From: Pyrus communis | Taxonomy: Eukaryota > Streptophyta > Magnoliopsida > Rosales > Rosaceae | Assembly: GCF_963583255.1 (NCBI RefSeq) | Contig: NC_084803.1 | Span: 10,390,122-10,454,121, forward strand | Reading direction: 5' to 3' | Length of the DNA: 64,000 nt | Shown: in pieces, positions 13,258-38,600 of the stretch | How the letters are laid out: the number at the start of each line of letters is the position of its first letter | How positions within the stretch are numbered: position 1 is the first letter of the stretch | Position numbers and translations under genes: made by a program | Notes under the pieces: model-generated | Seen by the model: only the letters and a program-made list of their open reading frames with translations | What the model was told of the DNA's origin: nothing | Database searches by the model: none

Positions 13258-14201
13258 TTACCATAGCTTTATGTGGGCTATACTTGGTACAGTTTCCGGG
13301 AGTTTGTCGTCAAACTTGCAACTGGTTGTTTCGCCTGGATCACAGTCAATTCTGTTATTGCCAGATTCATCATAGCAGAGGGCGACTTGGGCCAAATATA
13401 TTAATTTCTTGCTCTGCTTCTGCATTTGTTGATAGCATCTGATATTGACGGAATGTCCGCCAGTTTCGGACTCAATGGCCTTTGTTATCTGATCGATGGA
13501 GTACAATTTGTATAACGACATCTTTGGCTGAAGTGGTTGGGGTACAATATTAGCCTTCTGCAGGATTTGAGCTATATCAAAATCATGGTACGTCGCTAGG
13601 GTCTTCCGGAAGTACTCGGTCTTCGGGAACACGTTGTCGGAGCACTTTCCGTGCTTATCATACTCTCTTTGCCAGAATTCGACATGGTCCCCTTTTCTCC
13701 AATCCCACCACGAACTGAGTAGCTCCTTTTTCAGTGCATCATCCATCTACATATATTATTTAATTAAAACATAAGAAGAAAACTAGTTAAGAATACACGT
13801 ACATACACGGAAACACACGTACATATACGGTACACATGTAGGGAGATATATAATGATACATATATACACATATACATATATACATACATACACATACGTA
13901 GGGACACACATGAATATTAACTATTGAGAGTTAATTTGTGAATAATTACCCCATTCACATTAAAGGCATCCCCCATGCAGGTAAGGGATGAAGAGGATGA
14001 TTTATTCGCAGGCCAGAGACCATGAATAGTGAACTGAAGATGAGATGGTTGCATGATGTGGCATTTATTCACCCCCCCTATAGCTTGGCATTCAGCAGCT
14101 GGCCAGAACTGAACATGCATAAAGTATTGGAATGGTGTGTAAGCGGATGAAACTGTGACAAACAAGAAGAAAAATATGACTTGCACTAACTTTGACTCCA
14201 T
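13258..14201 (-). CDS. S-RNase-lineage T2 ribonuclease, two exons
   Basis: Exon 1 is 13950-14201 (84 codons) and exon 2 is 13258-13746; a 203-bp intron (GT at 13949, AG before 13746) sits between conserved regions C2 and C3, as in S-RNases. The product is 246 residues: a hydrophobic signal peptide (about 1-20, ending VSSA), C2 with FTIHGLWPAN (catalytic His60), C3 with FWQREYDKHGKC (second catalytic His), eight cysteines in the mature part and one NKS glycosylation sequon. T2 enzymes cleave RNA through a 2',3'-cyclic phosphate. In the style, S-RNases enter pollen tubes and determine female self-incompatibility specificity. The ILQKANIVPQP and CYDESGNNRIDC stretches resemble Prunus-type S-RNases. 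By my count acidic and basic residues are about equal, whereas S-RNases are usually basic, so a non-S relative is possible. The ATG follows a TATA box by about 40 bp. Confidence 0.88.
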
Positions 14202-15056: not shown

Positions 15057-16400
15057 AAGGTTCTCACCATGCCAAATTTCAATACAAATGATTCCTCCAT
15101 ATATGGTACAATAACAAAAACAACAAACTCAAAATTCAAAATTCAAACCAAACAATACAAAACCAAAATAATATGTACAATAATGACAAATAAAATATGA
15201 AAAAAAATGGTATTAATATTGCGTGGTTTACATGCGTTGCTCACAAAATGGGAAAAATAGATGTAAAAAAAATGAATGACTCAACCTAAAAATTAGCTTA
15301 CTCATCAATCTAAATATGGAAAGTAAATTGGGGGTAGCAATGTAGTCAATGGGTTTAAATTGAAGAAATAAAATTCAGAAAAAAATGCTTATCGTTTTTA
15401 AATCCTAGGCCTAGGCTAATCTTATAATAGTATACTTTAAATAATATCCTTAATAATAATGGTAGAGGAAGCGTGTAACCGTGTAATAAGATAATCTTAC
15501 ATTCTTAATAGAAAGTAGGGTTGGCAGATAAGATGCATAAATACTTTTTACCAAATTTAAAATAAGAAATATAGATACAATGAATGCATATCTCAATACA
15601 CTAAAATGGATATTATTCATATCTATTCCATATGGAATGCAAATATTCTACATTAATTTCTCAAATAACGTATCTTCACAGTATGATTTGAGCTAAAGTT
15701 AAGTCTTGCCTAATCCACATTCGCCATGTGGGTATCACGTGACGGAATAAAATGAACTTGGGCTAAAATCAAATAACACGACACCCACAAACAAATAATG
15801 AATTATATTGAGCCGACCTAGCTGTAAGGTTATTGGGTCGAATAACACGTCTCACACTTGGTCGTATCCATCCAACCTAAGACGACATTCCATTAGAGTT
15901 GAATGGATACGCTATTATAGTATGTGATCATCATATGGACCAGACTTGTAACACTTGTGAATAATAGGATAATACTTGTGATTAAAGCAGCTGATATTAA
16001 TGATTTAAATCCTAGGCTAAATCTTATGATGGTGTAATTTAATTAATATCCATAATACTAATGGTTTAGGGTGGGTGTAACTGTGTAATAAGACCATCTT
16101 AATTTTCTAATAGAAAGAGTGGCAGATAAGATGCATGCATACCTTCACCAAAATAGAACAAGAAATAGAGACTACGTATGCATATCTGATAACACTAAAA
16201 TGGACATGATCGTAAACATTCTACCTTCCCCGAATAACGTATAATTACAGTACAACTCAAACTAAATTCAAAGCCTAATCTAAATTCGCCACGTGAACAT
16301 GACGTGACGTAATAAAATGAACTTAGGCTCAAATCAAATAACATAAGAGGCCCGCAAACAAATAATGAATGTTATTGAGTCGGCCCAAATTTTAACGCAT
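15057..16400. repeat. Distal upstream block, inverted repeat with about 38200-39591
   Basis: Bases 15057-15370 match the reverse complement of 39291-39591, and about 15560-15960 match that of about 38230-38600. Within the block, about 15410-15810 and 16000-16390 are a tandem direct duplication with a period of about 590 bp; both parts contain AAATCCTAGGCTAA-like and GGCAGATAAGATGCAT sequences. The part at about 15560-15960 is also related to DNA upstream of the F-box gene (24300-24620). No gene seen. Confidence 0.8.
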
Positions 16401-19020: not shown

Positions 19021-19163
19021 CCCAAATTTCTTTCATTTGCATCCCACGCCTTCAAAAACTTTGAAATCTCTCTTTCCATTCCTGCTTGCTCCAACCACAA
19101 AACCTCAAGCTCATCTCTCACAAACCCCCTTTTTAGCCTACGCAAACCTTTGACTCCTTACCA

Positions 19164-20057
19164 ATGGCCTCCTTCATCTTAAAGCTTTCCGACGAGTGCA
19201 ACAAATGCAAAGATTTCATCGACCGGAGAGCCATCAAAACGATATGCTTCGAAAACGACCTAGCCACCACCCACCAAATTCTGGGCCCACTATTCAAAGA
19301 TGCAGTGCCATCGTGCATCACCAACCTCCTCAAGGAACAGTGCCTAACACCCGTGCTGCAAGGGTTTGACTGGTCGAAATGGTGTTTGGCACGGCCCCAA
19401 GGAGCTTGGCCCTCGACCACTATAGCTTGGGCCGTCTGGGTCGACCAAATGGGAACATTCTTCGACAAAGAATGGGACGCTCTCGGCATTCATGACGCCA
19501 TCAAGCTCTCGACCATGGAGATCACCATGGATAAAGAGTTGTTCATGGCGGCCCTGAGTTTATGGTGTTCGGCTACCAACACCATGATCTTTCCCTTCGG
19601 CCCTATCAGCCCCACTTTCCTTGATATCTCAGCTATCCTTGGGACTTCCTCATCTAGTCTCCCAATAGATGCTGCCCTTGCCGGGTGCCCGTCGAACCTC
19701 GACCTAAAAGCGTTGTTCGACGAACGGGCCGTCGAGACACTAAACCGAGGAGATCGAGAGCCTTCGAAAGAAGAGGTTCAAAAGCTACACAAGAACTTCT
19801 TAAAATACAACACTCTCATTCTCCACTTCACCGGTCGAGGCGAGGAGAGCCTTAGGAAGGGAGAACATAAAGCCTTCCTATTCTACTGGTACAACAAATT
19901 CATCTGTTGTACCCCTTGGGTCAAATTTCATGTCTTGTGGAACAAGTATGGCCATATAAGCGGAGTCACTCGGATTTCATCTATTGTCCCGGATCAAGGT
20001 GATGGTAGCGTCGCTACTCCGTTAGGTCAAACTCTTCACAGAGTTGTTGAGTCATGA
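19164..20057 (+). CDS. Plant mobile domain protein, short form
   Basis: A 297-residue ORF from a clear ATG. The stretch from about residue 85 to 170, with STTIAWAVWVDQ and WCSATNTMIFPFGPISPT followed by FLDISAILG, matches the plant mobile domain (aminotransferase-like, PF10536 type) found in MAIN-like host proteins and in Mutator-like and Ty3-type elements. Many members exceed 500 residues, so the C-terminal half is missing or the gene is truncated at the TGA. GC content is clearly higher than in the surroundings, as is common for recently moved PMD copies. Its own TATA box and leader are present. No transposase or LTR is seen beside it. It could be a captured domain or a truncated host gene. 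Confidence 0.7.
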   Translation: MASFILKLSDECNKCKDFIDRRAIKTICFENDLATTHQILGPLFKDAVPSCITNLLKEQCLTPVLQGFDWSKWCLARPQGAWPSTTIAWAVWVDQMGTFFDKEWDALGIHDAIKLSTMEITMDKELFMAALSLWCSATNTMIFPFGPISPTFLDISAILGTSSSSLPIDAALAGCPSNLDLKALFDERAVETLNRGDREPSKEEVQKLHKNFLKYNTLILHFTGRGEESLRKGEHKAFLFYWYNKFICCTPWVKFHVLWNKYGHISGVTRISSIVPDQGDGSVATPLGQTLHRVVES

Positions 20058-21842: not shown

Positions 21843-23972
21843 CTAACGACCGATTTCAGCAATCTTGGTCCAAGATTTCAGAGATCTGTCATCGTAGTCT
21901 ATTTCATACAATGCAAAGTGAGTTATGGGGAAGGTCAAGCTAGTAATGCTCTCGTCGAGAATATTAACAATTTCTCCAGCTTTTTTCCTTTCTTCTTCCG
22001 TCAACTTCCCGTAGAGGAGACTCAAATATGGCATAGAACCTGCATCAAATATTGCACACACGCAGATTACATACGTACATTCCCGTCAACACTTTAAGAA
22101 ATTAAGTCACGGTAAACAACAACTTACTGTTGTAGAAACCGAAATGGTAGCTCCAACGTTGGGCATTTTCAAACAACTAAGAAAAGAAGGTGTAATGATA
22201 AGTGAGTCTATTCAAGCTCAAACCAAAACGAGAAAGATGAAAAGGAAACAAAACAGAACAAAACAAAACATCAAGAAAATCAATATGTATTAAAAAGGGA
22301 TCGAGAAAATATATACCTCTCGATCCATCAATAATGAAACACACTGGTGATAGTAATTCTTAGTAACCACCCGATCAACTTTAGCAACGATGTCATCCAT
22401 AGGAGCAAATCTAAACTTGTTAAGGGCATCCTCACGACTCATCATCTGGATGGATCCCAGGATGGGGATGTGAGGTTCGATCTCCGGCCCACCAAACTCT
22501 GCCTGGAGGCCCTCCATCACCTTCTTGATTCTATGGGAAACATCAGCCGGTGGAATGGCCCAAACCGAATACGAGTACAACCTCCGGCAACTTTCCCTCT
22601 TCCCGTCTACCACCACCATCGCATCTTCATCTTTATCTGAGCAAGTATTCTCTATGCTCTTAAGCTTGTGGCTGCGTCCCATGACCGAAACTATGCTATT
22701 CACATAAACAATAATACTATCTTTATCTTCTGTTTCAATGGGAATATGCTTAAGCTTTTTGGTACAAAGATTAAAGAAAACTACGTGTCCATCACTGTCA
22801 ACCATAAGCCACTCATCGCCCCACAACGCCACAGGTCCAGACCTACGTATCTGATCATCTGTGCCCTCAATGGTCAAGTGTTTTGTCCAAGCACCCTTAA
22901 AGTCATCATCCATCACCCACATTTCATAAGGTTCAGGATATCGACGATGGTCCACACTAAGGGCAAAAAAAGCAACTGATTCATTCCAAACAGTAAGCTT
23001 CAAATAGAGGTGATTCGACCGCACAAACTGTTGGAGCTCAGATGGTAAGGGTATACCGTGAAATACCTCACGACTTGTATCGAAGGAAATGATCAATTTC
23101 CCATTCGCATGGAATCGATGCCCAACTCCGTCAAATGGACATAATTCCTTATCTTGCTCAATTCCCAGCCAATAACACATTCCCTTGAAGGACATCTGGA
23201 AATCCTCAGGCCAAAACAAAGTAGTTTCGGTTTCTAAAGAATCTGTGTTGATCTCTTCCCAAAAATCACAACCCATGGTGTATACTACTGCCTTGTGCCG
23301 ACTAAGAAATGTCCGGCAGTCTTCATCTACCTCTTGAAAATAAGTAGTAAAGGTCACAACTTTGTACTCATTAGACATGGGATCATAGCCAAATCCAGTA
23401 TGAAAACCAGTTTCCATATGTTCTTGCCGATCGTAATCATCCGGCTGGTCCAAGGGCCACATTGGAAGGCATGGCTCATCGGGAATACGATTGAATTCCC
23501 CAATTCCGGGATTGCATAAAACTAGGCCACTCTCACTAGATAGTAAAACAATGCCATTGCAGTGGCCTTGGATACGAAATTGTTGTTCCGGCACTCCGAT
23601 ATTTTGAATCAAAGATTGAGGAATAATGATGTCCTGGACACCAACAAGAGAGCAGCTATTGCTATGCTCGTCATCAGTATTATCATCGTCTTTGAAAAAC
23701 TCAAGAAATGATAATACTTCTTCAGTCTCCTCCTTCTTAGTGGTCTCCTCCTCCTCCTCCTCCTCCTCATGCTGCCGCTGCACTACTAATCGCGCCAAAA
23801 AGACGTGGAGAGTGGTGAGATTGTTGTTCGCGGAGTTGGAGAGGTGCTTTGACAGAAAACCCGCATTGTTGATGAGAGCAGACCACCATTTAGAGACACA
23901 TTTGAATCGCATCAGAGTTTTGGGAGGCAGAGTTAGTAGGATTTTCACCAACATATCTTGTCCCATTTTCAT
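21843..23972 (-). CDS. SLF/SFBB-like F-box protein fused to a cyclic-phosphodiesterase-like domain
   Basis: Three exons, 22317-23972, 22128-22176 and 21843-22039, keep frame across both GT/AG introns and give 633 residues. Residues about 3-45 are an F-box (ILLTLPPKTLMRFKCVSKWW), which in SCF ubiquitin ligases binds SKP1. A glutamate-rich insert follows (about 72-90), then an F-box-associated domain of S-locus type (LCNPGIGEFNRIPDEP, GFGYDPMSNEYKVV, SFKGMCYWLG, YEMWVMDDD) to about 430. From about 468 the protein becomes a 2H phosphoesterase like plant cyclic phosphodiesterase (YSVWAIPPADV, EFGGPEIEPHI, KLTEEERKKAGEI), which opens ADP-ribose 1'',2''-cyclic phosphate. Its first HxT motif is His501-Ile-Pro503 and its second is Tyr573-Leu-Ser575, so catalysis is probably lost. 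The gene is about 8 kb from the S-RNase-lineage gene and on the same strand. The role of the fusion is unknown; the intact 1.9-kb frame argues against a pseudogene. Confidence 0.87.
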
Positions 23973-24039: not shown

Positions 24040-24620
24040 TTAATATTTCTAAGAAGAAAAAATCACAAACAGTAAACTAATTCAGATTTTAGATCAAATC
24101 TTTGATTAATTCTCGGAAGCAAGGTCCAATTACATACATCCTGATCTGCGTGTGTGCATATCATCACCATAGAAACTGATTAGGATTAGTAAGTAAAGAT
24201 TTTAATTACTTGTTGCAGAAATTACCGGAGACGAAAGAGACCCCCGCCGGAGAAGGAGTCGATGGAGGCCGCACCTGCTGGTTTTGTGTTCTGCTCTACG
24301 ACAGTGATGATAGACCGAGTGTGAGAGATGTGTTTCTTCAACCCTGTACCTCAAAAGTTGGGCCCACATAATATCATCCATTGCTTTCTTTGTGGGCCTC
24401 ATGGAACATGTTATTTGATTTTAACCCGAGTTCATTTCTTCTGTCACATCGTGTCAACATGGCATAATGTGGATTATACCTTGATTTTAGCCTGCATTAT
24501 ACTATGAAGATACATTATTTGAAAAAAAAATGTATAATATTTGCATTTCTTAGAGTAGATCTGAATCATGTCAATTTTAATGTATTGAGATATGCATTCA
24601 TTGTATCTATATTTTGGGTA
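24040..24620. repeat. Upstream block of the F-box gene, shared with 37837-38600
   Basis: Direct repeat of 37837-38600, anchored by CGGAAGCAAGGT, CATAGAAACTGATT, TTGTTGCAGAAATTACC and GAAAGAGACCCCC. Its distal half is also related to the reverse complement of about 15560-15960 upstream of the S-RNase gene. It probably holds the F-box gene promoter. Confidence 0.75.
24046..24226 (-). promoter_or_regulatory. Possible 5' leader intron of the F-box gene
   Basis: The minus strand has a donor-like CTCCG/GTAATT at about 24226 and an acceptor-like TTTTTCTTCTTAG at about 24046, upstream of the ATG at 23972. The GC-rich stretch 24227-24300 would be the first untranslated exon. This is proposed from the splice-like sites only. 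Confidence 0.3.
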
Positions 24621-25903
24621 AATATCAGTTTACTACTCTTAAGTTTCGTGATTTTCAACATTTGGTACATAAAATTTTTTTCGTCCCAGAGTCATATCTA
24701 AAGTGTTAATTTTGGGACAGTCTCATACATCCGTTAGTCAAACTATTAACTCTGCCTTTAACTGATGATGTGGCGCCTATGTGGACAACGACTGTACACC
24801 ATGTGTCATGAAGGGATCCACGTGGAAATTAAAAATTCAAAAAAATAATTATTTAAAGAAAAGTTAAAAAAAAAAAAAAAAAAAAAACCAAAAGCAAAAC
24901 CCAGATTGTCTTCCCTAAATCCCCCCATGCCCACCTTCCCACCTCTATCACCCGCAACCACTTCCCTCCCCATTGCACCTCTATCCCACCTTCTCCCATC
25001 CCCCATCATCCCTCCCAAAAATCTCGTCGTCGCCACCCGAGCCCACCTACTTCTCCCATCCCCAAAAATCCCGTCGTCGCCCTCCTTCTCCCATTCCACC
25101 ATCCCTTCGAAGCCGTTGATGGCGAGGTCTAAATCCTTGAGGTTTTTGAGACGACCCAGTGAGTCGAGAATCTCGCCAACTAAGCTTCACTCGGTGAGCT
25201 AAAGCACCTCAAGGTTCGTCAAATTGCCGAGCTCGACCGGGATCCGACCCGAGTGAAATAGGTTGTAAGAAAGGTTGAGCATTTTTAGTGTGGAAATGTT
25301 GCCGAGAAACGGAGGGATGGTGCTTTCGATGAGATTGTAGACGAGAGAGAGGACCTCGAGTTTCTGGAAGCGGTCTAAGGAGTCGGGAATTGGTCCGGAG
25401 AAATTGTTTCCGGTGAGGTTGAGGTATTTGAGGTTAGGGAGAGTGGCAGGGAGGGTGCTGGTGAGAAGGTTTTGGGAGAGGTCAAGGTGCTCGAGATTTT
25501 GACAAGGGAAAAGTGAGGGAGGGAGGGTGAGGAGGGAAGTGGTTGCGAATGATGGGGGTGGGAGGGTGGGCACGGGGGGATTTAGGGAAGACAATCTGGG
25601 TTTTGCTTTTGTTTTTTGTTTTTTTTTTGTTTTTTTTTTTTTGTTTTTTTTTTAACTTTTCTTTAAATAATTATTGTTTTGAATTCTTAATTTCCACGTG
25701 GATCCTTTAATGACACGTGGCGTCCAGTCATTGTCCACATAGGCGTCACATCATCAGTTAAAGGCAGAGTTAACAGTTTGACTAACGGATGTATGAGACT
25801 GTCCCAAAATTAACACTTTAGATATGACTCTGGGACGAAAAAAACTTCATGTACCAAATGTTGAAAACCATGAAACTTGAGGGTAGTAAACTGATATTTA
25901 CCC
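24616..25903. mobile_element. MULE-like element with long inverted repeats and a captured LRR-kinase fragment
   Basis: The ends GGGTAAATATCAGTTTACTA and its complement open inverted arms of more than 300 bp (24616-24935 and 25565-25903). The interior carries an LRR receptor kinase fragment and no transposase, which is the Pack-MULE pattern. The inverted repeat continues 30 bp outside the termini into host-like DNA (24583-24615 and 25904-25935), so normal direct target duplications are absent; this suggests a rearranged insertion. Poly-A and poly-T tracts lie at the inner part of the arms. Confidence 0.7.
25105..25515 (-). pseudogene. LRR receptor kinase (HAESA/HSL1-like) ectodomain fragment
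   Basis: Five or so leucine-rich repeats are readable: NLEHLDLSQNLLTSTLP, LKYLNLTGNNFSGPIPDS, KLEVLSLVYNLIESTIP, LKMLNLSYNLFHSGRIP, then, past a stop near 25199, LGRLKNLKDLDLAINGF. Spacing and wording match the N-terminal repeats of HAESA-like kinases, which perceive peptide hormones at the plasma membrane. No signal peptide, membrane segment or kinase is present, and in-frame stops interrupt it. Confidence 0.75.
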
Positions 25904-26021
25904 AAAATATAGATACAATGAATGTATATCTCAATCTCTGAAATACTTCAAAAAATGAAATTAAACTAAATTTTGGGACGGAATACAAAAGGTCTACCGA
26001 TTTACTTTCCATATTAAAGAC

Positions 26022-26128
26022 ACATTTGAATTGCATCAGAGTTTTGGGAGGCAGAGATAGTAGAATTTTCACCAACATATCTTGTCCCATTTTGTTGCAA
26101 CACCAGTCGCGCTCTCCCTCTAACGATT
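26022..26128 (-). pseudogene. 5' fragment of a second F-box gene copy
   Basis: From ATG at 26088-26090 the minus strand reads MGQDMLVKILLSLPPKTL and then MQFKCV, nearly identical to the start of the F-box/phosphodiesterase gene, then diverges after the FKCV codons at about 26022. The leader also matches (23973-24010 versus 26091-26128). Beyond 26128 the homology is broken by a LINE with a nested hAT and resumes at 29890-29948, then again after the copia element at 37837. It cannot make a product. Confidence 0.85.
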
Positions 26129-26302: not shown

Positions 26303-29300
26303 CAGTGGCGGATCCAGGATTTTAAACTCGGGGGGTCCCAATAATAAAGGTTAAAAAATTTATAGATAAAAATAACATTGAAAAGTTAAATATAATACAT
26401 TTTATTCAAAAATCATTTGCATAACAATATTACAAGCTATAAAATCCTAATTCAAGCGTCCACGACGAGGTTTCATGGTCTGAAAATGTTCCATGATAGC
26501 TTCATTACCAATACATGAAAAAACATCTTTCTCAATGTAAACAACTAAGCTGTCACTCAACCATTGATCTCCCATTTTGTTGCGAAGTGGACCCTTAATG
26601 ATATTCATAGCGGAAAATGCCCTCTCCACTGAAGCAGTTGCAACCGGTAAAACCAAAGCCAACTGAACAAGCAAATATACATATGCAAATGTTCGATGCA
26701 ACCCTTTCTCCACCATTTTCTTAGCAAGCTCATTAATTCCCCGCAATTGAGAAAAATCATTATCAGAACGCACAAAATGAATGTAAATATCAAGTTGATC
26801 TTGAAGTGCCAATCTATCTCGATCCGTGAAATCTTTAGGATACATATGAGCAAGGCGAACAAGCTTCTCTTTATCAAAAGCTACAAATGAATCATTCGGA
26901 CTCAAGCATGCCAAGCAAATAAGCAATTCGGTATTACCTTCAGCGAAGCGATCATCTAATTCTGTAAGTTGGAAATCAATGATCTCGAAAAAGAGCTCCA
27001 CTTTGTAATGATGATGATTGGTCTTTCTTGGAGCCTTACGCAATGACTTCCCTTGAATGACATATAAATCATCCATATTAGGCACCTCAATTTCATGTTC
27101 AATACAAAAAGATGATACTTTATCAACCAAAAGATCAAAATTTTCATCATTCCTCATGCAACGTAGTTGTTCTTTACATGTCTTGACTAAAGCCATTGCA
27201 TTCACAATCTCTTGACCTTTTTTTTGCAATGCTTGTGACAAATCGTTTGTAACTCCTAATATGGATTTCATCAAAAAGAGGAGGAACACAAACTCAAAAG
27301 ATTGTAAATCTTTTAATAACCTTTTTGCTTCACCAGCACTATCATTGTAGCAATCTTCAACAATCATGTCAAGCACATCCACCACAGATGAGAACATTGT
27401 AATCAAACTAATCAAAGCACCATAATGTGAATTCCACCGTGTATCCCCAGCACGTTTGAGACTAGTTTCTTGATTTAACCCTTGCCCCGTTTCAAGACAA
27501 TCATTTTCAATAGCTTTCAAGAGATTTTCTTGTTGTTTCTCTCTAAGTGCATCACGACGCTTACATGAGCATCCAACAACATTTACCAAACTATTAGTCA
27601 ATGTGAAAAAAGCGGCAACATCGGAGTTTTTCTTTGCTACGGCAACAAGAGCTAATTGTAGTTGATGAGCAAAACAATGAACATAAAATGCACAACTTTC
27701 TTCATCCAAAATTTTTTTTTTAAGGCCATTGAACTCACCTCTCATATTACTCGCACCATCATAACCTTGACCTCGTAGGTTGGAGTAGCTCAAGTCATGT
27801 AGTTTCAAGAACTCATCAATGGACTCCTTTAGTTTACTTGAAGTTGTTTCGGTAACATGTTGGACTCCCACGAACCTTTCAATTACTTGACCTTTGTTGT
27901 CCACATAACGCAAAATCACCGCCATTTGCTCCTTTGTTGAAATATCACGTGATTCATCTACCATTATAGAAAAGAATTTACTCTCTTTCACTTCTTTCAT
28001 AATAGCCTTAATAGTTTCGAAGGCACATGAATTGACAATATCTTTTTGAATTGAATGAGCTATTAGCTTGAGATTTCCCGGAGCATTTTCCAACACAACT
28101 TCCTTTATTTTCTCATCATGATCTGCAAGGAATTGCAAGAGCTCTAAATAATTCCCCCTATTATTCGAAGTGACACTTTCATCATGGCCACGAAAAGGAA
28201 GGCCTTGTCGCAACAAGAACTTAGTGCAATCTATTGATGCATTCAAGCAAAGACGATATTTCATACACTCTTCTTCTGATTGTTTGATCACAACTGCTTC
28301 AATATGTGTCTTTTGGTTCATTAGATAACTAGCCGCTTCTCTAGCTTTATTGTGGAAACTACCAATAGGACCAACATGTTTGTCAAAACATTCTCTTGCA
28401 TTCTTCCATTTCTTAAAGCCTACCCCAGTGAAGGCATCGCTTCCTAATTGTGAAAAGTTGATTTTAAAGAGATAGCAATGAAGACAAAATGCCGCATCTT
28501 TAGATATACTATACTCCAACCAATCATATTCTTCAAACCACGAAACAACAAATCGTCGCTTTTTCTTTGCATGCAAAGTGTATGGGAACTCATACTTTGT
28601 AGGCCTACAAGGTCCCATTTGCAAATATGCTCTGCGGACCTCATCTTGAATATTAGAAGGATAGTCCTTCATTCGAATTCTTTTTCCCGGGTCTCTCTCA
28701 AGATTATTAAAATCAATGTCACACTCAATTTGTCTTGAGCTCGAACTACCCGAACAAGTAGATGGTGCTATTGGCTTTGGCTTGAAAAATCTTTCCATAT
28801 TTCTTATTTCTAAACTACACATTTAACCAAAAACACAAAACATATACCTATCAACCAATAAACAAAAATTCCTTATTTCTTATTTCTAAACTACACATTT
28901 AACAAAAAATACAAACATATACCAATTACCCAATAAACAAAATTTCCATCTAAATTCTAATGATCAAATGAGTATAAACATAAAACATATCAACAATCAT
29001 ATCAATAATAGACTAAAAATCTTCATCAATATCTAATATAATTTAATTGAGATTAGATTAGAATACCAAAAAACTTACTTGAATTGTGAACCAAATAGTG
29101 GTGACCTAGAGATTTGGGGAGGTATGATATTAGAGTAATAAAATTATAATATGGGATTGGGTGTGGGATTTAGAATTTTAGGGTTTTGAAATCTGAGGAG
29201 TTGGGGATTGGAAATTGGATGAATATGTTAAAGCTGGGCATTGGGGGAAGCAGAAAAGAAATTTGGGTGAATATGTTATTGGGCATTGGGGGAAGCAGAA

Positions 29301-30921: not shown

Positions 30922-32179
30922 ATAAACTATTAAATAACACACAATAGAATCTCTATAAATGCAAGAAAAACAAGGAATAGAAGAACCTTAAGATATCGAG
31001 GCTAAAATTTAATTCTATAGCCTTAAGACAAGATTGCCCCTCGGTGGTGCCTCAAGGTTTGTGTTGGCAAATGTCTCCCAGGATACAATGATGATTCTCT
31101 TTGCGAAAGTAGCACTCCAATCCACAAAGAACAGCGAACCAAAAGTGTTTAAAACCCTCTCTTTCTTGAACACTAAACTACTCTAATTTCTATATGATTT
31201 ATGGATGCAAAACTATATCTAAAATGCTTGACTTGGTGGTCTATTTATAGGCATTAATATGCCCTATTTTCAAAGGATGCGTCTGCTTCCAAAGGATAGA
31301 GGTTGCGTCTGCTTCGAAGTCAAGGGATGAACCCTTTGTTGAATCTTACATCTGTTTGCAAATGACAAAAAGCTGCAACCTTTGTTCAAACATACACAAC
31401 CCTTGAAAATCTGCCGGTCAAACCTTTCCATGACCATTTTCCATAATAAAATAAAATTAAAAAGGAACAATTGCATATTGCAATATATAGGCAGTCAAAG
31501 ACTAACCCACTTTTCCATTTTAATTTTCATTCACTTGAATATTTAATATTTAAATATTAATAATACTAATATTTAAATTATTAAATTTCGAACAATCCCC
31601 ACATGAATGAAAATTAATAAAATTTAATGCAAATGAAGATGCAGACACTTAAAGAGAGTTTAATTGGACAAATACCGTATGGGGAAAGGTAGCTTTTGGC
31701 TTTGAACCTTCCTTAGTGAAATATTATCGGATTTACTAGCTAATCAGTGAACGCAATGTCTTGAACTGCTCAGCCGTTGATGTAAACCAAGACAATAATA
31801 TTCACACAGTATTCCTCCTAACACATATGATTCTACGGTTGTGTTCATTTTGGCCCTAAACAATTCCGAGTAATCTTGAGTGCTTTAGAGAATTTAGCCT
31901 TATAATTCTCATAGAAACGGCCACTTTTCACACTCATGTAGGTGATATCCCATGAAGAGTATCCTGCACAATACCCCACTTGTTATTTCCAAGTATAGGA
32001 ATCATTGAAAGCAAAACTTATCCTAAACACGCTGCAGAAAGCACTGTTTCATCATAGGACATGGGTTGGAGATTATCTCCGCAGTGCTCCCATTGAATCA
32101 TCCACAATTCGGTTGTCCCTTTTGAACCTAGATCTTGGGATTTCCAGTCAACTAGGTTGGGTTGCCATTATGGCGATTC

Positions 32180-32888
32180 TTAAGATGTAGGCTTTAAACC
32201 CATTCCCCTCGATGATTTATAAACTTGCTCTCTAGTCAAACCTTTAGTAAACGGATCCGCTATATTTTCTTTTGACCTTATGTAATCAATGGTAATTATA
32301 CCACTTGAGAGAAGTTGCCTAACGGTATTATGTCTACGACGTATGTGTGGAGACTTACCGTTATACATATGATTTTGTGCCTTTCCAATCGCTGATTGGC
32401 TATCACAATGTATACATATGGCGGGCACCGGCTTCAGCCAATTGGGAATATCCTCTAAGAAATTACGAAGCCGTTCAGCTTCTTCCCTTGTTTTGTCTAA
32501 AGCAATGAACTCAGATTCCATAGTGGATCTAGCTATACACGTTTGTTTAGAGGATTTCCATGAAATGGCTCCACCTCCCAGAGTAAAAACATATCCACTC
32601 GTGGACTTCGAGTCTTGTGGATATCCAGTTAGCATCACAAAAGCCTTCAAGTACTGCTGGATATCTTGTGAAGTGCAATCCATAGTTCTGTGTAAATTTC
32701 AGATAACCAAGAACCCTTACAATTGCCTTCCAATGATCCTTTCCAGGATTACTCGTGTATCTACTCAATCTGTTAACTGAATATGCAATGTCCGGACGTG
32801 TATAATATGTAATGTATATTAGACTACCAATTATTCGTGCATATTCACTTTGAGATATACATTGACCAATATTCTTTGATAAATGCAA
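32180..32888 (-). pseudogene. copia RNase H region
   Basis: Two overlapping frames (32547-32888 and 32180-32683) carry the end of reverse transcriptase ([20 protein letters not shown]) and RNase H, with [12 protein letters not shown] and the closing [14 protein letters not shown] frameshift around 32600 separates them. Not functional. Confidence 0.85.
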
Positions 32889-32981
32889 ATTGACATCATA
32901 TGGTGTTTTTGCATGACTACTTACATACTTACTAAATTTTGTAAGTATTTTCTCAATATAATGTGATTGAGATAAAATTAG

Positions 32982-33809
32982 TCATTCAGACATTCTAGAA
33001 ATCTTGATTCCTAGTATAACATCTGCAACTCCCATATCTTTCATATCAAACTTATTAGCCAACATTCTTTTGGTAGATTTAATAATCTCATGGTTACTAG
33101 CAATAATTAGCATATCATCGACATATAGACACACAATGACATATCCCTCTTGTGTGTTTTTAGTGTAAACACATTTGTCACACTCATTTATTTTAAATCC
33201 ATTTGACAACATTGTAGTGTCAAACTTATGGTGCCATTGCTTAGGTGCTTGTTTTAAACCATAAAGTGATTTAACAAGTCTACATACCTTTCTCTCTTGG
33301 CCATGCACTATGAAACCTTCAGGTTTTTCCATATAAATTTCCTCGTCCAAATCACCATTTAGAAAAGCAGTCTTGACATCCATTTGATGAATCTCAAGAT
33401 TATGAATTGCTGCAATAGCAATCAACATATGGATGGATGTTATCCTCGTGACTGGCTATGCATCAAAATAGTCTAAGTCTTCTCTTTGCTTATAACCTTT
33501 GGTGACAAGTCTTGCTTTGTACTTGTCAATAGATCCATCTGCTTTCATCTTCCTTTTGAAAATCCATTTATAACCTAAAGGTTTGTTTCCAGGAGGAAAA
33601 TCCACCAATTCCCATGTATGATTTTGCATGATGGATTCAATTTCAGCATTAATAGCCTTTTTCCAAAATGGAGCTTCTGGAGAGGATATAGCTTCCTTAT
33701 ATGTTTGAGGCTCATTTTCTAATAAGTAAGTAATCAAAACAGGTCCAAAAGACGTTGATATCTTAGCCCTCTTACTACGTCTTGGTTCTGATGTGAAATA
33801 TTCTAACAC
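32982..33809 (-). pseudogene. copia reverse transcriptase
   Basis: The frames 33456-33809 and 32982-33428 are separated by a single stop. The first has the N-terminal WKKAINAEIESIMQNHTWELV and YKARLVTKGYKQ; the second has MDVKTAFLNGDLDEEIYM and the catalytic YVDDML. The 5' end is cut at 33788 by a solo LTR insertion. Confidence 0.88.
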
Positions 33810-35602
33810 TCAAATTAAAACCCTATGATTGTAGTATATGAAAGTAGGGATCGTTTTAGTTCGGGGATTAGAAGGGATGCTAATCTACTCTAAACTGACT
33901 TAAAAACACAAAACTAAACATAAAAACACTTTAGACTTATATGACTCAAAACAAACTAAAAAGACTCAAAACAGCACAAAATAATCAAATAGACTCAAAC
34001 TAGACTCTAAACGGTGATTTGGACGAATTCTAACTTAACTTTGACTCAAAACACTTAAAAACATAAATTTGGACAGATTCTAACTAAAAGACACAACCAA
34101 GTAAAAGGGGATTGGATTTTGGACGAAATTAAGGTAAAAACAAGCAGATTGTAAAGACTCTAAACAACTTGGACGAAATTAGGGAAAAATATGGGTGATA
34201 AGCTAGCTAGAGGGTCCTTCTCCACACATGACACACTTGCATACAAATTGATTTCCGGTTGCTTTTCCAATAAACCATGAACCTCAACACCCCAGATTAA
34301 CCGTGAACAACACTAATTAACCCTCAGATTTTCCTTAAGTCATTGAATTGGATGGAATACGCATCGGCAACCAAATTATTCTTCAATAGTTCCCTACATG
34401 AACAACATAATAGAGATACAATCAAAGATCATTAAGCTTTGTGAAAATCATAAGCATTGACAAGGCATTCGTAACTATGAAAAACATGATACTCTTGTTA
34501 GGAATTTACTTAACACGATCGTGACTGGCAACCTCCACTACTTATAAATATAAGTTCATAACGATTAGGTGAAACTCCCTTATATTTTAGTATCAAATTC
34601 ATGCATGCAAACTAAGCGGGCCCTCTTAATCAACACACTAGAATAAGTTCTTAATCAAACAGTTAAGTAAATTGTATTCACGATTTATGATATCACAACT
34701 GAAAGTAATCAATTCATATTGCAAATATAATCATGGTTTCAAAGTCTCCTCTAGCTAAAACAAGTTTAGCTCCTCATGTTCGCAAAACAAAGATAATTAA
34801 ACTTAAACATTAAAAACAAAGATAGAATACACCTAGAAACACTCCAGGTGGCTCATTCTTCCTTCCTTGATGCGCACAATGGGAATTTGTGTGAATTTAG
34901 GCTCTTGAGGTGTGGCGGATGGTGTGGTGTGAAATTGTGGTAGAGGGTGGTGGTTTATGAGTGTTGCGGCATCATGTATTTATAGGATGAAGGGAAGGCA
35001 CGAAATTGGGCTGAAAAGGAGATGAATTAGGACTCCAAATCACCGAAGAACAAGGACACTTTCAATCAGATTCCAAGGAAGACAAGGAATGGTCCTTGTG
35101 GCAGATTCTAGAACTTCTAGAGGGGTTACATGTGGCATAAACTTATGGCACGAAAATAGGGCTTCTAGAACCTGATATTTAGGTGATTTAATGTGAAAAG
35201 GAGTCCTCTTTGCAGCTGGAATTAAGGTAGGAAAAGATTAGGTTAGGATAAGATAAGATAAGGTTGGATAAGGTTTGGATAAGATAAGGTAATTTGGATA
35301 ATGTTTCCTTCTTCATGGTTGATTCCTTATCCTCCAAGTCTTTGATTTAATTCTTCCAGATGATAAGCACATTCCTAGCCTGTTTTGATCTTCAATTTCA
35401 TCCATCCACCTTGCTCCATGCATATGCAATCCATTCCAAGCCCAAAATAGCTCTAAAATGCTCCAAATTGCACTTTCTTGCCAACTTTGTTATTTAAACC
35501 TACAAACACACGAAAATAGTTTAAATCACTATAATAAATAGAAACTAACTATGTAAATGCAAGAAAACAAGCTAATTAAGTTGTATAAATATGCTCCTAT
35601 CA
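33789..35602 (-). mobile_element. Solo LTR of the 9.4-kb Ty3-type family
   Basis: 1814 bp from TGATGTGAAAT to ATATGCTCCTATCA, flanked by the 5-bp duplication GGTTC (33784-33788 and 35603-35607). The ends and the internal GTAGGGATCGTT phrase match the LTRs at 52761-54897 and 60020-62124. It lies between the reverse transcriptase and integrase of the copia element. Confidence 0.9.
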
Positions 35603-36093
35603 GGTTCTATTTCTTGTAAATGTTCTCGGTCAACAGAATTATCATTATTTTCTTTATGACTGCTATTAAAGTCATCATAAGTTCTTTTCAAAGAATTTTG
35701 TTCTTGTGCAATTTTCCATGGAAATACGTTTTCAAAGAATATGGCATTCCTTGATTCAATTATTGTATTAACATGTACTTCGGGATTATCCGATTTATGT
35801 ACAAGAAACCGATATGCACTACTATTTATGGCATAACCAATGAAAACACAATCAATGGTTTTAGGTTCTATTTTAATATTCTTAGGATCAGGGACCGTTG
35901 CCTTAGCTAGACACCCCCAAACTTTGAGAAATTTATAAGAAGGCTTTATGCCTTTCCATAATTCATAAGGTGTCTTATCTAACTTCTTATGAAGTAATTT
36001 ATTGAGAATGTGGTTTGCAGAAAGCAATGCTTCTCCCCACAAATTCTGGGCTGCCCCAAAACTTATCAACATAGCATTCATCATTTCTTTCAA
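35603..36093 (-). pseudogene. copia integrase C-terminal part
   Basis: The frame holds MKEMMNAMLISFGAAQNLWGE, TPYELWKGIKPSYKFLKVWG and IDCVFIGYA, the end of the copia integrase core and its C-terminal region. The zinc-binding part and the catalytic residues upstream are missing because of an internal deletion joining directly to gag. Confidence 0.85.
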
Positions 36094-36788
36094 TGTACGA
36101 TTTTTGCGTTCAGCAACTCCGTTTTGTTGGGATGAATAAGTTGACTGTTAGACTTCTTTTCAAAGCAACGATTATCCTCCTCAAGTCCCATCTCTTTGCA
36201 CTTATGCTTAAGATAATTTTTGAAATCTTTCCAAGCAGGAGGTAATTTTTCAATTACTGCAGCCACTTGAAAGGTCTCACTTAGCGACATCCCTTCAGCA
36301 TGTATTTCATGAAGAATAAGTTGTAGCTCTTGGACTTGATTGATAACCTTCTTGGAGTATGTCATCTTGTAGTCAAGAAATCGACCGACCACGAATTTCT
36401 TCATGCCAGCATCTTCAGTCTTATATTTCTTGTCAAGAGAGTTCCATAAGGCTTTTGCACTTTTGATTGGACTATACACATTGTATAGTGCATTATCTAA
36501 TGCATTGAGGATGTAATTCTTGCAAAGAAAATCAGAATGGTTCCATGCATCTACTGCAACCACTTCTTCTACGGTAGTTCCAGACACAGGCGCATCTTCA
36601 GTCAGAAACTTTGCCAAGTTTAGAGTGGTGAGGTAAAATAACATTTTCTGTTGCCACCTCTTAAAGTCTGTCCCATTGAACTTCTCAGGCTTCTCACCAT
36701 GATTGGTGGAAGATGGGATCACCACGGGCACAACACTCGCAACTAACGTGCTGCCTAATTTACTAAAAGAATTACTAGTATCATCCAT
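36090..36788 (-). pseudogene. copia gag, truncated
   Basis: 232 residues from an ATG, with the UBN2/DUF4219 pattern: [40 protein letters not shown] and [20 protein letters not shown]. The zinc knuckle, the protease and the start of integrase are absent, so the element is defective. Confidence 0.85.
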
Positions 36789-37836
36789 TTTCCCTTAAAA
36801 GAGAAAGATCACACAATTCAATATATTGTAATTAAATTGAAAAGCAACAAAGTATTATGAAGCAAATAAATTTTAGTTTCTTTACACCTTAACCCACAAG
36901 ATTATTTAAAACATGTCGTAACAGTTTAAAACATACACATATGAATCATATATGAAAACAAACCAAACAATTTATTGCACTAAAATAATTATCAGTCCAA
37001 ACTTAAAACACGTATAAAAGTGAACCAATAATGGTGGTGGGCACATGCTTTGAACTTCTCATAAAGAATTCTAAGAAATCATCCCAGATTCTCATAAATA
37101 ATTTTCAAACAAATATAGCAATCAATACAAAAAAAATCCTTGTCTTAAGTTATTGGAAAAAGCTATGGAAAAACTGCTATATATTTTATTATAAACTATT
37201 AAATAACACACAATAGAATCTCTATAAATGCAAGAAAAATAAGGAATAGAAGAACCTTAAGAGATCGAGGCTAAAATTTGATTCTATAGCCTTAAGACAA
37301 TATTGCCCCTCAGTGGTGCCTCAAGGTTTGCGTTGGTAAATGTCTCCCAAGATACAATGATCTTTCTTTTTGCCGAAGTAGCACTCCAATCCATAAAGAA
37401 CAACGAACCAAAAGTGTTTAAAACTCTCTTTCTTGAACACTAAACTACTTTAATTTCTATATGATTTATGGATGCAAAACTATATCTAAAATGCTTGACT
37501 TGATGGTCTATTTATGGGCATTGATATGCCCCATTTTCAAAGGATGCGTCTGCTTCCAAGTCAAGGGATGCAAACCTTTGTTGAATATTACACCTGTTTC
37601 CAAATGACAAAAAGCTGCAACCTTTGTTCAAACATGCACAACCCTTGAAAATCTGCCGGTCAAACCTTTCCATGACCATTTTCCATAATAAAATAAAATT
37701 AAAAAGGAACAATTGCAGACTGCAATATATAGGCAGTCCAAGACTAACCCACTTTTCCATTTTAATTTTCAATCATTTGAATATTTAATATTTAAATATT
37801 AATAATACTCATATTTAAATTATTAAATTTCTAACA

Positions 37837-38600
37837 CAGAAAACTGATTAAGCTTTAAGATCAAAACTTTGATTAATTTTCGGAAGCAAGGTTCAATTAT
37901 ACATGGTGATGTGCGTGCGTGTGTGTGCGCGCGCGCGTGCGTGTGTGTATATTTATCATCATCATCATAGAAACTGATTTAGATTAGTAAGTAGAGATTT
38001 AATTAATTGTTGCAGAAATTACCAGAGATGAAAGAGACCCCCGGCAGGAGTAGGAGTCCATGGAGGCCGTGTCGGCTGGCGTTCTATTCTGCTTTATGAC
38101 TGTGAATGGTGCAATGCAACCGGGAGGGATTTGTTTCAAGTTCAACTCTTTAATTTATGGGAGTTTCCAATGCAAGGTCGCACTCAAAGTATGCATCTTA
38201 GAAAACGTCTTAATTTTATAAAATGATAGACCAAGGGCATTGTTCGAACCTACAACCTCCAACCGTGATGGAACATCGTCTTAGGTTGGATGGTTATGAC
38301 CAAGTGTGAGAAATGTTATTCGACCCCACAACCTTACAGTTGGGTCGGCTTGATATCTTTCATTATTTGTTTGTGGGTCTTATGTTATTTGATTTTAGCC
38401 CAAGTTCATTTTATTTTTTCACATCATGTGCAAATGACAAATGTGGATTAGACAAGACTTCATTTTAGCCCGAGTCATATTGTGAAGATACGCTACTCGA
38501 AAAAGGTGGAATATTTACATTCTTTATGGAATATATATGAATCATGTCCATTTTAACGTATCGAGATATGCATACATTGTATCTCTATTTCTTTTTCTAC
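37837..38600. repeat. Orphan copy of the F-box upstream block
   Basis: Direct repeat of 24040-24620 without a gene beside it; its gene start is the fragment at 26022-26128. Its distal part (38230-38600) is the reverse complement of the S-RNase distal upstream block. It includes a GT/GC microsatellite at about 37911-37946. Confidence 0.78.

Follow-up and report, generated by a model that had tools for sequence, protein, structure and literature searches.

A pear gene that joins an F-box protein to a 2H phosphoesterase fold within an RNase T2 array

Described relatives and the pear fusion gene

The gene considered here lies in a stretch of 64,000 nucleotides of the pear (Pyrus communis) genome (the window; contig NC_084803.1, positions 10,390,122 to 10,454,121) and encodes an F-box protein that continues in frame into a 2H phosphoesterase fold, close to a gene for an RNase of the T2 family. 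Its nearest described counterparts are the SLF/SFBB/SFB pollen F-box proteins, with which it shares an F-box followed by an F-box-associated (FBA) domain, linkage to RNase T2 and several tandem copies; it differs in its extra 2H domain and its two introns, S-pollen genes being intronless in the text excerpted from PMC7881130. A second comparison is offered by the S-like loci, described as an S-like SLF in close linkage with an S-like RNase (PMC8774079). In pear, too, an F-box gene adjoins an RNase T2 gene (7.6 kb apart, within an array), but the F-box partner has a C-terminal 2H domain and the pair has been amplified into an alternating series. The 'Mal S-locus' of Gillenia, with segmental blocks that each place an F-box gene and an RNase T2 gene (or a remnant of one) in tandem, among transposons (PMC12033343), resembles the pear array, although its F-box genes are called SFBB and the word 'phosphodiesterase' is absent from the main text. 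The 2H fold, for its part, is found whole in plant cyclic phosphodiesterase (CPDase; Arabidopsis, PDB 1fsi/1jh6/1jh7), whereas in the fusion it forms the C-terminal domain of an F-box protein and both catalytic motifs are altered. The likeness of the F-box part to SLF/SFBB is presumed from its FBA domain.

The fusion gene occupies three exons on the minus strand of the window (23972-22317, 22176-22128 and 22039-21843), separated by GT..AG introns of 140 and 88 bases. Together they make a single frame of 633 residues, with in-frame stops preceding its ATG, and the product runs from F-box through FBA propeller and linker to a whole 2H (cyclic-phosphodiesterase) fold. Its features, in window positions, are as follows.

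22317..23972, minus strand: exon 1, residues 1-552, holding the F-box, FBA propeller, linker and first half of the 2H domain
23853..23960, minus strand: F-box, residues 5-40 (PF00646, 21.6 bits, cut-off 20.5)
22749..23195, minus strand: FBA_1, residues 260-408 (PF07734, 34.6 bits, cut-off 21.1), following the F-box as in SLF/SFBB
22578..22667, minus strand: linker, residues 436-465, modelled with low confidence in the apple orthologue
22464..22472, minus strand: motif 1 of the 2H domain, H501-I502-P503, where HxT is expected (Thr to Pro, from the 1fsi alignment)
22128..22176, minus strand: exon 2, 49 bases, 2H domain; its join matches P0002 and P0003
21843..22039, minus strand: exon 3, end of the 2H domain and stop codon
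22020..22028, minus strand: motif 2 of the 2H domain, Y573-L574-S575, where HxS is expected (His to Tyr, from the 1fsi alignment)

The 2H part was recognized by comparison with solved structures (phmmer), in which residues 467-629 align to residues 8-175 of the 189 in Arabidopsis cyclic phosphodiesterase 1fsi (E 2.8e-28); the Pfam CPDase family (PF07823) scores 15.8 bits, below its cut-off of 21. The F-box part and the 2H domain meet inside exon 1, the latter starting near residue 466. For the fold, AlphaFold2 was applied to the apple orthologue P0002 in place of the window protein itself, with an alignment of 29 rows as input. The resulting model has a mean predicted local distance difference test score (pLDDT) of 69, with values of 65-91 in the 2H blocks and below 50 in the linker (428-468), and its best PDB folds in Foldseek were 1jh6 (E 2.1e-13), 1fsi and 1jh7, with template modelling scores of 0.77-0.82 by target and identities of 36-37%. 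An earlier sequence-only reading of the window had proposed the same frame, coordinates, length and join, and it is borne out by the splicing, the 1fsi match and a domain search of the 633-residue product, in which F-box and FBA_1 exceed their Pfam cut-offs.

Both splice junctions recur in related proteins: MDRE/LFEN and FYNS/SMPY in the window correspond to MDRK/LFEN and FYNS/SMPY in P0002 and to MDRE/LFEN and FYNS/SMPY in P0003. The latter spans the entire spliced product, both junctions included; it has 635 aa and comes from the source 'lgn', with 3 contigs of up to 2301 bases. Because genomic pieces from the same source (P0102, P0104) read on into introns, the P0003 contig is probably complementary DNA, and the fusion family would then be transcribed.

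A homologue search with the fusion protein against 5.8 billion proteins, which reaches relatives with short exact words in common, returned 51 matches. Both parts are covered in proteins of Malus domestica, M. baccata, Rosa, Rubus and Fragaria, and Argentina has a shorter model. Alignment extends across the F-box and 2H parts in seven named Malus proteins (P0001, P0002, P0004-P0008, a set that includes shortened models) and in 14 from Rosoideae (of which P0026 lacks the F-box proper), and the pear genome contains three intact copies in which the frame and both splice junctions are kept. Since the identical join occurs in other genera and in three intact pear copies, an assembly or gene-model accident is ruled out, and the join is not confined to one assembly, an outcome by which the sequence-only reading would have been undone; its expectation of F-box plus 2H proteins in other Rosaceae proteomes is realized in Malus, Rosa, Rubus and Fragaria. 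The five Prunus matches cover the F-box part only. No non-Rosaceae name occurs among the 51 matches of this short-word search, in which P0003, P0030, P0035, P0043 and P0044 carry no organism. Stand-alone 2H proteins were found in many plant families by a 2H search that was limited to short proteins and could not return full-length fusions. The sequence-only reading also knew of no described protein of this architecture. This stands for the literature, where no published account of F-box plus 2H was found among the matches listed, but not for the databases, in which three Rosa chinensis entries are automatically named 'putative F-box domain, RNA ligase/cyclic nucleotide phosphodiesterase'.

Active-site motifs and constraint in the 2H domain

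Enzymes of the 2H phosphoesterase superfamily are described by two HxT/S motifs (PMC5283653, in part). The window protein has HIP and YLS at the positions where 1fsi has HVT and HLS. Across 29 fusion-sized rows, motif 1 reads HIP in 22, HIT in 3 and HIA in 3 (unaligned in 1), and motif 2 reads HLS in 13 and YLS in 12, with 4 other or missing; both are intact in two rows only (P0011 and P0024, the latter from Fragaria). None of the nine Maleae-type rows keeps both, motif 2 being missing from the model in two of these, and 19 of 20 named non-Rosaceae stand-alone proteins do. The remaining short Rosaceae or unnamed rows keep both in 5 of 21 cases; three unnamed rows (P0063, P0071, P0089) stand outside both motif groups. 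One stand-alone gene of the pear genome (L014, contig C3) retains HIT and HLS, so the ordinary enzyme seems still to be present in pear. Other stand-alone Rosaceae 2H genes have altered motifs (HIP or HFP, some with YxS or QMS: P0055-P0059, L015, L018, L019), and for this reason the catalytic Thr may have been lost before the fusion arose.

The consequences of such changes can be gauged from the homologous enzyme CNPase, in which a change of either His abolishes activity and T232A and T311A nearly do so; T232A raises the Michaelis constant (KM) about 70-fold, with a large error, and H309Q failed to trap ligand, though H309S succeeded (excerpts of PMC4643303). Given these mutants and the HIP and YLS motifs, catalysis by the pear 2H domain is very unlikely. 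For pear, the possibility that the F-box protein carries a working phosphodiesterase was considered and rejected on the two motifs.

Despite this loss, the domain appears to be held under constraint. The window protein is 55-64% identical (mean 61%) to 14 Rosoideae fusions in the 2H domain and 41-44% identical (mean 43%) in FBA. Within pear, comparison with the intact copy L013 yields 7 synonymous and 6 non-synonymous changes in the 2H part, a ratio of non-synonymous to synonymous rates (dN/dS) of 0.21 (binomial p 0.008 versus neutrality), and 10 synonymous and 33 non-synonymous changes in FBA (dN/dS 0.84, p 0.37); the two parts differ with a Fisher p of 0.046. The dN/dS of FBA against the copy L010 is 0.55.

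RNase T2 linkage and the history of the fusion

Downstream of the fusion gene by 7.6 kb and on the same strand lies an intact RNase T2 gene (14201-13258) with one intron and both active-site histidine motifs (HGLWP, KHGKC).

13950..14201, minus strand: RNase T2 exon 1, with a hydrophobic start that looks signal-peptide-like by eye and the motif FTIHGLWP
13258..13746, minus strand: RNase T2 exon 2, with the motif KHGKC and the stop (PF00445, 83.8 bits)

S-RNases have been characterized by at most two introns, absence of amino acid pattern 4 and an isoelectric point (pI) of 8 to 10 (PMC12033343, in part). The neighbour has a single intron and lacks pattern 4, but its pI is 6.74, and among solved structures in the PDB it is closest to RNase MC1, RNase LE and further non-S enzymes, with Pyrus S3-RNase 11th of 16. 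We call it an S-like RNase T2. Assignment as an S-RNase, as in the sequence-only reading, which placed the fusion beside an S-RNase gene, is not accepted on these grounds of pI and solved relatives. Four relatives of this RNase were found, two from Pyrus and one each from Malus and Rubus.

The linkage is tighter than that reading had seen. The genome searched comprises 487 Mb in 29 contigs, with the window at C1:10390122-10454121; C1 (43.46 Mb) is the longest of 11 contigs listed, and chromosome 15 is the longest in apple and pear. Seventeen 10-kb stretches around the window were read, and across about 200 kb (C1 10.384-10.582 Mb) RNase and fusion genes alternate, in the order L011 (a fusion copy with a frameshift), RNase, the window fusion, RNase, L012 (a fusion copy with an interrupted 3' end), RNase, L010 (an intact fusion), RNase, L013 (an intact fusion on the other strand), L020 (a fusion copy with a frame break and a 2H deletion), RNase piece and fusion remnant. 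Short F-box-start and 2H pieces are interspersed among these larger ones, and the window holds one further remnant:

26019..26093, minus strand: fusion-gene start remnant, 25 residues, 92% identical (tblastn)

All four full RNase copies are intact, with pI values of 6.74, 7.09, 6.74 and 8.79, of which only the last falls within 8 to 10. Three of them (copies from one genome, not alleles) are 97.5-100% alike, with pI 6.7-7.1; the Pyrus communis RNase P0117 has the sequence of array copy RN2. Collinear runs hold both genes: in a 234-kb string, 25.4-36.4, 36.5-41.6 and 41.6-44.7 kb are about 97% identical to 144.6-155.6, 156.6-161.7 and 166.8-169.9 kb, and 27.3-36.2 and 42.0-45.0 kb also match 88.7-97.6 and 107.7-110.8 kb. 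RNase T2 and fusion gene have been duplicated together. As judged by eye, L012 (C1:10479878-10477842) has lost its 3' end to retroelement gag-like sequence. A second fusion cluster lies on contig C10 at 1.36-1.42 Mb (L016, L017, L021), all three copies having stops and a shortened 2H, and the truncated Pyrus and Malus database models P0087, P0107, P0111 and P0112 resemble these by eye.

The association extends beyond pear. Two Rubus argutus models have consecutive locus tags: M0R45_028571, an RNase model of 177 aa with 40% identity over half of the query, and M0R45_028572, which combines an F-box start with linker and 2H. Tags 028555, 028558 and 028562 belong to additional 2H or fusion models, locus tags being taken here as map order. 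Of the four RNase relatives, all but P0117 lie on a contig equal in size to one with a fusion or 2H match (P0118/P0053, P0119/P0007, P0120/several), a linkage of chromosome scale only, except in Rubus with its consecutive tags. Because of these tags, the RNase/fusion pairing may be older than the split between Maleae and Rosoideae.

Clues to the history of the join come from six pieces that end in or cross introns. P0102, P0104 and P0106 reach back far enough and lose homology directly after 'LQ' before the 2H part, as at a splice acceptor; P0030 stops at ...STPNV where the full protein P0033 has ...STPNTG, as at a GT donor. Rosoideae fusions appear to carry an intron in the linker, which in pear and apple has 38 residues and no intron and in seven Rosoideae proteins has 36-40 residues, a pattern that suggests precise loss of the linker intron in Maleae. 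The position of the following intron, within the 2H domain, looks equal by eye in the two groups. Since Rosoideae fusions appear to have the linker intron, the single-exon join looks like a derived, Maleae condition.

Other features of the window were noted alongside. A dispersed repeat, about 74% alike at 24309-24614, 15567-15868 and 38298-38590, lies upstream of both the fusion and the RNase genes and may be a mobile element or a shared promoter piece. Adjoining the fusion gene is a leucine-rich-repeat gene fragment (25202-25651, minus strand; LRR_1, LRR_8), followed by a hAT-type transposase frame that is open for 791 codons (26450-28822, minus strand), with DUF4371 and a hAT dimerisation match just below its cut-off. 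A plant mobile domain frame (PF10536, 54.8 bits) occupies 19137-20054 on the plus strand. A Ty1-copia-like element spans 30922-37836, with repeats (30922-31594/37191-37836) 91% alike and minus-strand pol-like frames, by eye, at 32183-36794. Within-window repeats of 96-98% (52761-54898/60020-62125, 1586-3283/62321-64000 and 1-745/52018-52760) are probably young retroelement duplications.

Candidate functions

The explanation that we favor, at a probability approaching but short of even, is that this RNase/F-box locus encodes an SCF receptor whose 2H pseudoenzyme serves as a recognition module. The gene would have arisen when a CPDase-type 2H gene was attached to an F-box/FBA gene of the class to which SLF and SFBB belong, possibly in a single event preceding the split between Maleae and Rosoideae. 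Its product would most likely be a substrate receptor of an SCF ubiquitin ligase, in which the F-box binds SKP1 and the quickly varying FBA propeller selects targets. On its flexible linker, the 2H domain, whose motif loss and conservation are observed, would act as a second recognition module through a putative binding role. Because the F-box-2H gene stays linked to RNase T2, in the manner of S-like loci, the foremost candidate partner of the receptor would be the array RNase, or RNA or nucleotides produced by it; we rank this specific proposal below the general one.

Several observations weigh against this account. At the level of the gene model, the F-box clears its curated Pfam cut-off by just 1.1 bits, and a precomputed Pfam list gives an F-box for the Malus proteins P0001 and P0009 and none for P0002-P0008. 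Two shorter fusion models, P0033 and P0060, retain both catalytic motifs. Three array copies (L011, L012, L020) are broken and all three C10 copies carry stops; both Rubus linkage models are incomplete, M0R45_028572 being without most of FBA. As to constraint, F-box identity in 13 Rosoideae fusions is 51-63%, near the 2H level and slightly higher in 2 of 13, and the 2H part compared with all upstream sequence between window and L013 gives p 0.09. Only three intact pear copies were available for dN/dS, and since window and L010 differ in the 2H part by two changes (0 synonymous, 2 non-synonymous), the contrast between 2H and FBA rests on one real comparison.

The trees also bear on this count. 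Matches of the 2H search below 140 residues were set aside. The 2H tree has 60 rows, 13 of 73 having been removed before it was built (P0007, P0101, P0091, five Salix, two Xanthoceras, two Populus and one Dovyalis), and the shorter models P0033, P0054, P0060 and P0065 are labelled as fusions. Fusions fall inside a Rosaceae group that includes stand-alone rows, and the starred branches require at least six changes with labels as annotated; a single clade for the 2H part is not rejected by the approximately unbiased (AU) test (p-AU 0.335) when the nested stand-alone rows P0053, P0056, P0058, P0074 and P0097 are counted as fusions. In the F-box tree (44 rows; 8 of 51 matches dropped: P0005, P0006, P0010, P0012, P0027, P0032-P0034), Maleae and Rosoideae fusions are separate, on long branches, and at least three changes are required. 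One clade is rejected with P0030 left out of the fusions as an F-box-only row (p 1.8e-50) and not rejected with P0030 as a cut-off fusion (p-AU 0.13), a reassignment made after the first F-box tree was seen, P0030 ending at an apparent splice donor. A single origin before the Maleae/Rosoideae split is possible, being unrejected for the 2H part and, with P0030 as a cut-off fusion, for the F-box part, and two independent fusions, in Maleae and in Rosoideae, are possible as well.

Among the alternatives to an SCF receptor with a 2H recognition module, the one that survives best, though unlikely, is a pair of S-RNase type, in which the fusion would recognize the linked RNase protein and mark it for degradation as SLF/SFBB do, with the 2H domain merely a contact surface. 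An F-box with a fast-changing FBA domain (the dN/dS values of 0.84 and 0.55 given above), an array resembling the Gillenia blocks, and four intact RNase copies with one at pI 8.79 all accord with it. Against these stand the two introns of the fusion gene and the near identity and roughly neutral pI of three of the four RNase copies. In Malus the S-locus lies on chromosome 17 (PMC12033343, in part).

Slightly more doubtful is the proposal of the sequence-only reading, in which the 2H domain would bind the 2',3'-cyclic-phosphate ends left by RNase T2 and bring RNase, RNA or their complex to the SCF ligase. RNase T2 and fusion genes alternate, have been co-duplicated and, going by locus tags, are neighbors in Rubus; pear retains a single catalytic His and a single Ser, and both motifs survive in 2 of 29 fusion-sized rows and in two shorter fusion models. 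RNase T2 enzymes are mostly secreted, however, so a cytosolic meeting would require uptake, as in pollen. Moreover, Thr to Pro and His to Tyr strike residues that hold the phosphate, and with both motifs altered a competent cyclic-phosphate binder is not supported by the CNPase mutants T232A and H309Q, even though H309S still trapped a nucleotide ligand (PMC4643303, in part).

The next possibility, also improbable and by a shade more so, is that the fusion is a by-product of a tandem F-box/RNase cluster in birth and death, its 2H tail carried along without function. It would account for the several broken copies, the truncated gene models in Malus and Pyrus, the decayed catalytic motifs and the few changes behind the dN/dS evidence. 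It sits poorly with a 2H domain that is more conserved than FBA between subfamilies and under purifying selection between pear copies, and with a frame and two splice junctions retained in three pear copies and Malus. Least probable is an immune receptor that would sense or shield TIR-made 2',3'-cAMP/cGMP and couple them to ubiquitination: some relatives are named 'CPR1-like' in databases, CPR1 being the name of an immune F-box protein, but that name is an automatic label, and the identical motif losses (HIP, YLS), the linkage to RNase and the seven frames examined, in which no immune receptor was recognized and one is a leucine-rich-repeat fragment, speak against it.

A bolder extension of the favored explanation may be sketched, which we regard as speculative and unlikely as it stands. 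Rosaceae would possess an ancient second RNase/F-box system, apart from self-incompatibility, in which RNase T2, amplified in tandem, has an SCF receptor dedicated to it and the 2H pseudoenzyme of that receptor reads the RNase or its cyclic-phosphate RNA product, the pair forming a toxin and its sensor or antidote at one locus. CPDase-type 2H relatives act on ends of the type generated by RNase T2 enzymes. RNase T2/F-box linkage occurs in several plant families, and to our knowledge the role of such linked pairs outside self-incompatibility is open. The pear locus would provide a concrete, testable system of this kind and a candidate for an older function that may have given rise to S-loci.

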